A stretch of DNA of 48,381 nucleotides, taken from positions 1 through 48,381 of the forward strand of contig JAOZGB010000012.1 of NCBI GenBank assembly GCA_027491935.1. The letters are read 5' to 3'. A model generated the notes under the pieces. The model made no database searches. It had not been told where the DNA came from and saw only the letters and a program-made list of their open reading frames with translations. Below, one piece after another: positions 20,175 through 25,012 of the stretch. Both the position numbers and the translations under genes were made by a program. The first letter of the stretch is position 1; each line of letters starts with the position of its first letter. The DNA comes from Thermoproteota archaeon. GTDB taxonomy: Archaea > Korarchaeota > Korarchaeia > Korarchaeales > JAOZGB01.

Positions 20175-21854
20175 GTGGTAAAACTTAGGAAGAAGTGGGT
20201 TGTAACTTGCGCCTGGCCATACATAAACGCAGTTCCACACCTAGGCACGCTGATAGGTTCCCTTTTATCAGCGGATATATATGCAAGATACCTGAGGCAT
20301 GACCCTGATAACGAAGTGATATTTGTCTCGGGTTCTGATGAACATGGAACTCCTATAGAAGTTGAAGCTAGAAAAATGGGCGTGGATCCTCGTGAGCTCA
20401 CAGATAAGTATCATGAGATCGTTAAAGAACTGATTGAGAAATTCAGAATTTCCTTTGATAACTATTCTAGAACTGAAAGTGAAACTCATAAGGAGTTCGT
20501 TAGGGAATTCTACAGAAAAATATACGAGAGAGGATATATATTCACAAAGGATGAAATACTACCATTCTGCAACAAATGTAACATTTACCTTCCAGACCGA
20601 TTTGTAGAAGGACGTTGCCCTTACTGTGGCTATGAATATGCTAAGGGCGATCAATGCGAGAACTGTGGTCGACTCCTAGACCCGAAGGACCTTATAAACC
20701 CCAAATGTACATTTTGCGGGTCTAAACCTTCATTTAAAAAATCAAAACATTGGTACTTTGATCTTCCAGCTTTCGAAAAAGAGCTTAAACTCTACATAGA
20801 AGGACACCCTAGACTTCCGCCTAACGTTAAAAATATGAGCCTATCAATGATAAGGGAAGGGTTAAAACCGAGATCACTTACACGTGACAATAAATGGGGG
20901 ATAAGCGCACCATTTCCTGGCGCAGAAAACAAAACGATATATGTGTGGATGGAAGCTGTACTCGGCTACATATCAGCTGTAATTGAGTACTTCAAGCAAA
21001 AAGGCGATCCTGAGAGATGGAGGGAATTCTGGCTATCCAAAGACACGAAAACCTTGTTTTTCATCGGAAAGGACAATATACCGTTTCATATAATAGTATT
21101 TCCAGCCTTACTGCTTGCCTCCGGGGATGGCTACCCCCTACCATGGCAGGTGTCCTCAACAGAATTTCTAATGTACGAAGGTCAAAAATTCTCAAAAAGT
21201 AGGAAGATCGGAATATGGCTTGACCAGGCTATAAAACTCCTTCCATCAGATTACTGGCGTTTCTATCTGACTCTCATAAGACCAGAGACAAGTGATTCTA
21301 ACTTCTCATGGGACGACTTTCAACGTAAAATAAATAACGAGTTAAATGACACCTTAGGCAACCTTATCCACAGAACCTTAAGCTTCATAAACAGATATTT
21401 CAACTCAAAAATACCTAACCCGTCAGAAATGACCGAAGAGGATAAAGCGTTATTAAAAATAGTAAGAGAAACACCGATTATCGTATCCAGGAAGATAGAG
21501 GAATTTAAGTTTAGAGACGCACTAGTGGAGGTTCTAAACCTTGCTAGAAAATGCAACTCATATTTTAACATGAAAGAACCATGGAAACTGGTAAAAACAG
21601 ATAAAGAGCAAGCTTCAACATCCTTATATGTTCTAGCGGCTGCGATAAAGACGATAGCGGTAATAGTGGAACCTTTCCTCCCGGACACTGCAGAAAAAAT
21701 ATGGGAAACACTCGATCTTCCAGGTGACATTCATACATTTAATTGGCTGGATGCCTATCACCCAGTAAGCCCTGGAAAGAAAATTAGAAGATCTAAGCCT
21801 CTCTTTACAAAGATCGACGTAGAAAAATTAAAATCAGAGCTGAGTATGTTGTGA
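20175..21854 (+). CDS. metG: Methionyl-tRNA synthetase, catalytic and anticodon-binding core
   Basis: 559 aa; 'VTCAWPYINAVPHLGTLIGS', zinc knuckles CNKC...CPYC...CENC...CTFC, and KFSKS (KMSKS-like) loop. No C-terminal tRNA-binding appendage. Confidence 0.95.
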   Translation: MVKLRKKWVVTCAWPYINAVPHLGTLIGSLLSADIYARYLRHDPDNEVIFVSGSDEHGTPIEVEARKMGVDPRELTDKYHEIVKELIEKFRISFDNYSRTESETHKEFVREFYRKIYERGYIFTKDEILPFCNKCNIYLPDRFVEGRCPYCGYEYAKGDQCENCGRLLDPKDLINPKCTFCGSKPSFKKSKHWYFDLPAFEKELKLYIEGHPRLPPNVKNMSLSMIREGLKPRSLTRDNKWGISAPFPGAENKTIYVWMEAVLGYISAVIEYFKQKGDPERWREFWLSKDTKTLFFIGKDNIPFHIIVFPALLLASGDGYPLPWQVSSTEFLMYEGQKFSKSRKIGIWLDQAIKLLPSDYWRFYLTLIRPETSDSNFSWDDFQRKINNELNDTLGNLIHRTLSFINRYFNSKIPNPSEMTEEDKALLKIVRETPIIVSRKIEEFKFRDALVEVLNLARKCNSYFNMKEPWKLVKTDKEQASTSLYVLAAAIKTIAVIVEPFLPDTAEKIWETLDLPGDIHTFNWLDAYHPVSPGKKIRRSKPLFTKIDVEKLKSELSML

Positions 21855-21857
21855 CAT

Positions 21858-22622
21858 ATGCGAATCGGTAAAGTCGAAAGCTATATGCATGAAGCCTCTA
21901 AGAAAAGACCTTTAATTGGAGCTCTAATAGACCCGTTCAAGGATACTCCTGAAGTCAACGCTGAAAGGGCCAGAAAAGCTTCGCTAGGCGGCGCGGACAT
22001 CATTCTGATTGGTGGATCAGTGGGTGCTGGCATTACCCTTAACCAAACCGTGCGTTTAATAAAGGAAAAAGTGAAAGATGTTCCTATTATCTTATTTCCA
22101 GGTAATGTCGATGGTGTGTCTCCATATGCGGATGCTATACTCTTTATGAGCCTTATAAACTCTACCAACCCATATTGGATAATTAAAGCCCAAGCCCTAG
22201 CCGCCCCAATAGTATGGAAGTACAAGCTTGAAGCTATACCAACAGCATATGTAATTTTCGAACCCGGAGGACGTACGTCAGCGGGATGGATAGGAGACGC
22301 TAATCCTATACCAGGGAACAGGCCTGAGATAAGTCTAGCCTATGCATTAGCAGCTCAGTTTCTAGGTATGCGGTGGATATATCTGGAAGCGGGAAGCGGA
22401 GCCGAAGAAACGGTCCCCCTCGAAGCTATAACTATGATTAGAAAAAACACTAGTCTTGGGATAATCGTTGGTGGCGGTATTAGATCGGGGAAGGTAGCCG
22501 CTGAAAAATTCAAGGCTGGAGCAAACATTGTTGTTGTTGGTACAGCCATAGAGAAAGTGGGTGATGTTGAAGAGTGGATAAGAGAGTTTAGATCCGAGGT
22601 TAACGGTGCAACTAAAACTTAA
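21858..22622 (+). CDS. Geranylgeranylglyceryl phosphate synthase
   Basis: 254 aa TIM barrel; 'LIDPFKDTPE', 'IILIGGSVGAGI', 'LFPGNVDGVSPYADAILFMSLINSTNPYWII', 'YLEAGSGAEE', 'IVGGGIRSGKVAAEKFKAGANIVVVGTAIE'. Confidence 0.93.
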   Translation: MRIGKVESYMHEASKKRPLIGALIDPFKDTPEVNAERARKASLGGADIILIGGSVGAGITLNQTVRLIKEKVKDVPIILFPGNVDGVSPYADAILFMSLINSTNPYWIIKAQALAAPIVWKYKLEAIPTAYVIFEPGGRTSAGWIGDANPIPGNRPEISLAYALAAQFLGMRWIYLEAGSGAEETVPLEAITMIRKNTSLGIIVGGGIRSGKVAAEKFKAGANIVVVGTAIEKVGDVEEWIREFRSEVNGATKT

Positions 22623-22649: not shown

Positions 22650-22738
22650 AGCCCCGTGGTGTAGTGGCCAAGCACAGCGGGCTCTGGACCCGCTGACGCC
22701 GGAGTTCCAAGCGGCGAATTCGAATCCGGCCGGGGCTA
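22650..22738 (+). tRNA. tRNA-Gln (anticodon CTG) with 16-nt intron at 22703-22718 (position 53/54)
   Basis: Acceptor AGCCCCG/CGGGGCT + A73; D stem GTGT/GCAC; anticodon stem GCGGG/CCCGC with loop CTCTGGA; T stem GCCGG/CCGGC with loop TTCGAAT once AGTTCCAAGCGGCGAA is removed. Mature length 73 nt; no encoded CCA. Confidence 0.93.
22703..22718 (+). other. Non-canonical tRNA intron in the T arm of tRNA-Gln
   Basis: BHB: outer helix TGA/TCG (one wobble), central 4-bp helix CGCC/GGCG, 3-nt bulges GG^A and AA^T, inner GTT/AGC (one wobble) closing a CCA loop. Confidence 0.85.
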
Positions 22739-22750
22739 TAACTTTATTAT

Positions 22751-22835
22751 GCCGCCGTAGCTCAGTTGGTAGAGCGCTCGGCTGTTAATAGCCGCAGATA
22801 CCGAGTGGTCGCCGGTTCAAGTCCGGCCGGCGGCG
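22751..22835 (+). tRNA. tRNA-Asn (anticodon GTT) with 12-nt intron at 22788-22799 (position 37/38)
   Basis: Acceptor GCCGCCG/CGGCGGC + G73; D arm GCTC...GAGC; anticodon stem CTCGG/CCGAG; T stem GCCGG/CCGGC with loop TTCAAGT. Removing ATAGCCGCAGAT leaves a 7-nt anticodon loop CTGTTAA. Confidence 0.92.
22788..22799 (+). other. Canonical-position mini-intron in tRNA-Asn
   Basis: Central helix CTGT/GCAG (one G-U) with 3-nt bulges TA^A and AT^A; only a 5-nt loop remains, so the inner helix is absent (relaxed BHB). Confidence 0.8.
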
Positions 22836-22843
22836 TACCTTCA

Positions 22844-25012
22844 CTATGTGAAATAGGAAGTTTTATCATCTGAGATATAGGATTTCATCTGTCTTTCAAT
22901 ATTTGCGTAGTATTCTATAATGTCGCTCGTTAAACTAGGCTTTATCCTTTTCAAAGCGAGCATAAAGTCTTCCATCTTGACCATTTCAGAGTTTATGTTC
23001 CTTCTTATCGCATTCATCGCGGCTTCCCTGACTAACGCTTCTAAGTCCGCACCTGAATATCCATCTGTTAGTTCAGCTATTTTTCTGAAATCTACGTCTC
23101 TTGACAGGGGCATTTTCCTAGTATGTATTTCCAAGATTGAAATTCTATCCTGGTAATCGGGTGGTGGAACATATATTAGCAAGTCAAGCCTTCCAGGTCT
23201 TAAAAGGGCCGGATCGACAATGTCAGGTCTGTTTGTTGCACCGACCACAACTACCCCGGTTAATGAGTGTATACCATCTATTTCTGTGAGGAGCTGGCTT
23301 AAAACTCTTTCAACAACTCCTGAATTGTCAAATATCCCCCTCCTAGGAGTTATGGAGTCTATTTCGTCGATGAATATTATTGCCGGAGCAACCTGCCTTG
23401 CTTTTTTAAAAATTCTCCTGATAGCTTTTTCAGATTCACCGACCCATTTGCTAAGAATCTCCGGACCTTTTATGGAAATAAAGTTAGCCATGCTTTCCCC
23501 CGCCGCAGCTCTTGCTAGCAATGTTTTTCCACATCCAGGTGGACCGTACAGGAGCACACCTTTCGCGGGCTTAATTCCTAACCGTTTAAATACATCAGGC
23601 CTTTTGAATGGCAGCTCTACCGCTTCTCTGAGAAGCCTCTTAGCTTCATTCAAGCCTCCTATATCTTTCCACATCACCTTTGATATTTCACAGCTTATCT
23701 CTCTTAGAGCTGATGGTTGAACGATTTTTAATGCACCTATAAAATCGGACATACTAACCTTCAAGTTTTCAAGTATACTCTCCGGTATCTTTCCTTCCTC
23801 TTCGATGTTTGGTGCAACCTTATGAAGCCTTATCATTGCAGCTTCCCTAACTAGCGCCTCTAGATCAGCTCCTACAAACCCAACTGTTACTTCTGCTATC
23901 TTGTCAAGGTCGACATCTTCGTCCAGCGGAACATTTCTAGTATGTATTTTAAGTATTTCCTTTCTTCCCTCGAAATTTGGGGTTGGTAGCTCAATTTCCC
24001 TGTCAAAGCGTCCAGGCCTCCTTAAAGCTGGATCAAGTATTTCAGGCATATTCGTCGCTCCTATCACGATGACATCTCCTCTCGGCTCTAATCCATCCAT
24101 TAAAGATAACAACGTTGCGACAACCCTTCTTTCAACATCTCGGGAAACGTTTTCCCTTCTTGGGGCTATAGAGTCTATTTCGTCGATGAATATTATTGCC
24201 GGAGCATTCTTCGATGCTTCTTCAAAAACACTTCTAAGATTTTTCTCCGATTCTCCGTAGTATTTGCTCATTATCTCTGGCCCGTTGATCGATATGAAAT
24301 GCGCACCGCTTTCATTTGCTACGGCCCTAGCAATTAAGGTTTTACCCGTTCCTGGTGGTCCATAAAGTAACACCCCCTTTGGAGGCTTAATACCTAATCT
24401 TTTGAAAAGCTCGGGATGCTTTAGTGGGAGTTCAATCATTTCCCGTATTCTTCCAATTACCCCCCCGAGCCCACCTATATCTTCATATGTTATAGGCGTA
24501 AGTACATGTTCCGGCTCTTCCATGAACTCTTTTAGTATTATCCTTGTATCACTACACACAACCCCCCATCCATCTGGTTGAACACTCATAACTTTCAAAT
24601 GTAAAGAACCGATGAAACCGCTGATGGATACGAAGTCTCCTTTAGTTAAGGCTCTGTTTAAAAGCCTATGTTTAATCCAAGTACTAACCTCATCCGCAAG
24701 GATGGCGCCCTCCTGTGGAACAACGATCACTTTTTTGGCCTTTGTGAACTCTACAGGCTCTATGAAAACTCTGTCTCCAGTGGTGACTCCGCAATTCATT
24801 CTGATGTATTTATCCATCCTTGCGACTCCGGCTCCAACATCTATTTGTGTTGAGGGATATATCCTTGCGTGGGTAAATTTGCTACCTTGTACTGAAACGT
24901 AAGAACCAACTTTAAGGCCTTCTCTCTCAAAGATGAGAGGATCTATCTTAACCATGTTCTTTCCTATGTCATCTTGTCTCAGAACCTCTGAGACTATAAG
25001 TTCAAGCCTCAT
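22844..25012 (-). CDS. CDC48/VCP-type AAA+ ATPase with two AAA domains
   Basis: 722 aa; CDC48 N-domain, two Walker A motifs ([16 protein letters not shown]), two '[12 protein letters not shown]' Walker B motifs. Confidence 0.96.

Follow-up and report, generated by a model that had tools for sequence, protein, structure and literature searches.

The analysed window is the whole of contig C12 (48,381 nucleotides), one of the 19 contigs of a 455,944-base assembly that is 66.7% complete. At positions 22650-22738 it carries a tRNA-Gln(CTG) gene, in which a 16-nt insert, AGTTCCAAGCGGCGAA, lies between positions 53 and 54, flanked by GCCGG (49-53) and TTCGAAT (54-60). A sequence-only reading of this DNA had described the insert at this site, together with a complete BHB motif, and our coordinates and BHB search bear this out; its statement that the gene has no intron at 37/38 is likewise confirmed. 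The same reading had called the acceptor, D and anticodon stems perfect. All of the stems are indeed intact, but the D stem contains one T-G wobble. Moreover, the locus had been expected to be easily missed by gene finders, whereas both ARAGORN (as Gln(CTG)) and Rfam (44.0 bits) report a tRNA there. The locus is therefore not overlooked; it is the intron that both programs leave unmarked.

The tRNA-Gln gene is followed by a tRNA-Asn(GTT) gene, which ARAGORN misreads as Ile(AAT). The tRNA-Asn gene starts 12 nt past the end of the tRNA-Gln gene, a gap too short for a separate promoter, which suggests that the two tRNAs are probably co-transcribed.

Features of the tRNA-Gln(CTG) locus and of two further tRNA genes (positions without a contig name refer to the window)
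Feature	Position	Strand	Basis or remark
Methionyl-tRNA synthetase	20175-21854	+	upstream of tRNA-Gln
GGGP-synthase-like PcrB family protein	21858-22622	+	upstream of tRNA-Gln
tRNA-Gln(CTG) exon 1 (positions 1-53)	22650-22702	+	ARAGORN, Rfam, cloverleaf parse
BHB outer helix, 5′ strand TGA, pairs with TCG (22720-22722)	22694-22696	+	BHB search
BHB central 4-bp helix, 5′ strand CGCC (exon)	22697-22700	+	BHB search
5′ bulge GG^A, predicted cut after 22702	22701-22703	+	BHB search
Predicted 16-nt intron at 53/54	22703-22718	+	BHB search, cloverleaf parse; relatives' Gln genes uninterrupted there
Inner hairpin GTT-CCA-AGC (intron)	22704-22712	+	BHB search
BHB central helix, 3′ strand GGCG (intron)	22713-22716	+	BHB search; compensatory changes in G025, G098
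3′ bulge AA^T, predicted cut after 22718	22717-22719	+	BHB search
tRNA-Gln exon 2 (54-73: TTCGAAT loop, CCGGC, acceptor 3′ strand, discriminator A)	22719-22738	+	cloverleaf parse
BHB outer helix, 3′ strand TCG (exon 2)	22720-22722	+	BHB search
tRNA-Asn(GTT), canonical 12-nt intron ATAGCCGCAGAT at 37/38 (22788-22799)	22751-22835	+	Rfam, cloverleaf parse
CDC48-type AAA ATPase	22844-25012	-	downstream of tRNA-Gln
tRNA-Tyr(GTA), L030	C19:47345-47456 and on		introns: D loop 15 nt, 37/38 43 nt, 59/60 12 nt
tRNA-Ile(TAT), L027	C10:10830-10889 plus upstream		introns: D loop 16 nt, 29/30 14 nt, 37/38 27 nt

All BHB-type candidate introns in the tRNA-Gln(CTG) gene were enumerated, and every spliced product was scored as a cloverleaf. 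The best excision of all candidates removes exactly the 16 nt at 53/54, with complete central (4/4), outer (3/3) and inner (3/3) helices, and the exon-intron junctions lie in two 3-nt bulges separated by the 4-bp helix. The spliced product reaches the cloverleaf score of the intronless tRNAs in the same genome. The other excisions were rejected, as none yielded a comparable tRNA. When the 16-mer at 53/54 was shuffled or replaced by random sequence, the central 4-bp helix with at least two inner pairs arose at P ~0.0015-0.0024, and with three inner pairs at P ~1e-4 to 4e-4.

The BHB and the mature T stem are mutually exclusive, because both use the same exon strand. In RNAfold, the precursor has an energy of -41.9 kcal/mol with the T stem formed, as compared to -30.4 kcal/mol with the BHB forced. 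Since the T-stem fold is thus energetically favoured, the BHB must either be captured by the enzyme or form during transcription.

The only other tRNA-Gln gene detected in the genome, tRNA-Gln(TTG) on contig C10 (14209-14297), also carries a 16-nt insert at 53/54, AGAGTTCATCGGCGAT, which differs in sequence from that of tRNA-Gln(CTG). We compared these genes with 28 relatives of the same phylum, 24 of which belong to the same order. Of the 24 same-order genomes, 23 have at least one Gln gene that runs uninterrupted along the spliced exons, mostly at 85-95% identity to the spliced tRNA-Gln(CTG); with the unspliced gene as the query, the relatives' matches mostly end at base 53. The exception is G006, in which the inserts of both Gln genes lie further into the T loop. 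A pattern scan of 394 genomes gave a convincing 53/54 intron in tRNA-Gln only in the studied genome, in G025 of the same class (tRNA-Gln(CTG), 14 nt) and in G098, a distant archaeon with a small genome (tRNA-Gln(CTG), 29 nt), a count that is a lower bound because the scan demands exact motif letters. Pattern matches in G142 and G145, and a third one in the studied genome (in tRNA-Ile), were judged to be chance or mis-registered. Across the three lineages, one pair of the BHB central helix appears as C-G, T-A and G-C. The exon base of this pair takes part in the mature T stem as well, yet its intron-side partner would have no evident reason to change with it besides the BHB. The T-loop introns near 59/60 in the tRNA-Gln genes of G006, G041, G048 and G036 interrupt the same arm of the same tRNA; however, they lie about six positions further 3′ and are longer than the 53/54 intron.

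The 16-nt insert is almost certainly an intron that is spliced out. A decaying pseudogene, or an insertion that is never spliced, is highly improbable: every stem is intact, the identity of the exons to genes without an insert in other genera reaches 95%, removing exactly the insert restores a normal tRNA, and the BHB has all its helices and is backed by compensatory changes. Although an intact tRNA-Gln copy could sit in the missing third of the incomplete assembly, none was found in the 66.7% at hand and the genes for both Gln isoacceptors have an insert of this kind, which weakens the pseudogene reading. Retention of the 16 nt in the mature tRNA, where they would enlarge the T loop, is still less credible and indeed extremely improbable. 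In its lowest-energy fold, the unspliced RNA does form the T stem and places the insert in the loop, but this loop would be 23 nt, a size that would break the conserved contacts between the T loop and the D loop of tRNA. In addition, an intact TTCGAAT directly adjoins the insert, and the inserts of the other lineages at the same point measure 14 and 29 nt.

To which lineage does this genome belong? The closest GGGP synthase genes outside it are in the MAGs B8_G17 (QMVU01), Aegir_M25_B107, INS_M22_B125 and INS_M21_B183, and the QMVU01 and INS MAGs have been treated as Korarchaeia (PMC10667645). By their contig positions, the four MAGs correspond to the same-order genomes G024, G013, G023 and G006, respectively. 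The genome also has a tRNA-Ile(TAT), which is uncommon and has been reported for Korarchaeum cryptofilum (PMC8450103). Since both of these features point to Korarchaeota, the lineage is most likely korarchaeal, with a family of its own in its order. The complete genome would be ~0.7 Mb, smaller than most of its relatives.

Splicing of this intron had been thought to depend on the heterotetrameric endonuclease, which is probably wrong. The relatives encode a different arrangement: two PF01974 (tRNA_int_endo) domains are present in each of the 28 same-phylum genomes, and in all 11 relatives whose EndA was read, both domains lie in a single ORF of 357-409 codons. On the strength of the domain pairs in the 28 genomes and the 11 fused ORFs, separate genes for the catalytic and structural subunits were rejected for the relatives. 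In the alignment of the 11 proteins, the active-site H and K are conserved in the C-terminal half, and a lysine that does not vary among them, followed by proline in most, lines up with K44-P45-R46 of the A. pernix loop, residues that are tied to broad specificity. The best solved relatives of the fused korarchaeal EndA are crenarchaeal catalytic subunits. By its sequence, the relatives' enzyme is a predicted homodimer-type, single-chain EndA with the crenarchaea-specific loop. Two features speak against the epsilon2 (ARMAN) layout: the catalytic half lies at the C-terminus, and it aligns best with the crenarchaeal catalytic subunits. That the intron is real but cleaved by an (alpha-beta)2 heterotetramer agrees with the occurrence of the known non-canonical introns mostly in lineages with that enzyme (PMC4090602), and the EndA of this genome is itself unseen in the assembly; given the two domains in 28/28 genomes and the single fused ORFs in the 11 that were read, we regard such cleavage as very unlikely.

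A search for both EndA paralogues, proposed earlier as a check, returned no EndA in this 66.7%-complete assembly, and RtcB was not found in it either, whereas all 24 same-order relatives have RtcB. These genes are far more likely to lie in the missing third of the genome than to be truly absent. The simple reading is loss by incompleteness, because the relatives have 45-46 tRNA genes and this assembly 29, or ~63%, which matches the missing third. A reduced genome truly without EndA and RtcB, in which the introns would be removed by other enzymes or by those of a partner cell, is accordingly very unlikely. The RtcB ORFs of G010, G012, G015, G016, G018, G023 and G003 are mostly ~950 aa, and their family matches split near profile position 45-50, in an intein-like manner.

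Very probably, then, the locus encodes a functional, essential tRNA-Gln(CTG) with a BHB intron at 53/54, most likely cut by the korarchaeal two-domain homodimer EndA and joined by RtcB; the actual splicing and ligation, the co-transcription with tRNA-Asn and the enzyme of this genome are what we infer from these sequences. The transcript, probably common to tRNA-Gln and tRNA-Asn, would fold into the BHB, in which exon bases 48-51 would pair with the 3′ part of the intron. The splicing endonuclease, for which the korarchaeal single-chain two-domain homodimer with the crenarchaea-type specific loop is the likeliest candidate, would then cut after GG and after AA. Finally, a ligase, most likely RtcB, would join the exons and restore the T arm.

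Much of this is already in the literature, namely the korarchaeal enzyme type, the non-canonical introns of K. cryptofilum and position 53/54 itself. This position is among the listed non-canonical archaeal intron sites, and the BHB introns of Thermoproteales and other Crenarchaeota share with the present one the position, the motif, the short length and the clean restoration of the tRNA (PMC4090602). In contrast to those, the intron described here occurs in a korarchaeal genome, in both of its tRNA-Gln genes, and is mostly absent from relatives. Non-canonical tRNA introns were noted in Ca. Korarchaeum cryptofilum, which is of the same broad lineage with the same predicted enzyme type, and a korarchaeal alpha2 EndA with the specific loop was proposed by Fujishima and Kanai in 2014 (PMC4033280). 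The relation between enzyme and introns in Korarchaeota is therefore known already. As compared to K. cryptofilum (PMC4033280), the intron load here is far higher.

This load is less ordinary than the intron itself. The 29 tRNA genes are the search loci from the genome, with Met (L010), Lys-TTT (L015) and Ser-TGA (L018) settled by hand. They carry ~28 introns, while nine genes are intronless; ~16 of the introns are non-canonical, located in the D loop, at 25/26, 29/30, 30/31, in the variable arm, at 53/54 and at 59/60. The tRNA-Tyr and tRNA-Ile(TAT) genes have three introns each, and Rfam sees only the 3′ part of the latter. Most introns of the genome are 12-17 nt long, so the earlier description of 16 nt as small does not hold here. 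By comparison, 33 of the 45 tRNA matches in the same-order genome G002 (99% complete) do not exceed 76 nt and therefore count as intronless. The density in the studied genome is like that of Thermoproteales, for which 0.84 introns per tRNA gene have been reported, as compared to 0.21 for all archaea (PMC8450103).

What gives the intron a moderate importance is the lineage in which it occurs and the intron load there. It adds a comparison across three lineages for 53/54 in tRNA-Gln, a rare intron site, which it also locates in a korarchaeal family with about one intron per tRNA gene. The family thereby offers a natural test of whether a loop-bearing homodimeric EndA suffices to permit intron spread.

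Several minor observations concern the other tRNA genes. ARAGORN assigns the wrong amino acid to four intron-bearing tRNAs: it reads Thr(TGT) as Ala (L014), Ile(GAT) as Gln (L017), Val(TAC) as Leu (L019) and Asn(GTT) as Ile (L006). At 37/38, the tRNA-Trp(CCA) gene (L016, C15:4948-5078) has an intron of 57 nt; tRNA-Trp introns at this site are a frequent host of a C/D box guide RNA in other archaea. The introns of Lys(TTT) (L015, CTCGGTGAA), Ile(GAT) (L017, TTGGGTGAA) and Met (L010, CTCGGTGAA) have similar tails, which may reflect the spread of introns between tRNA genes.
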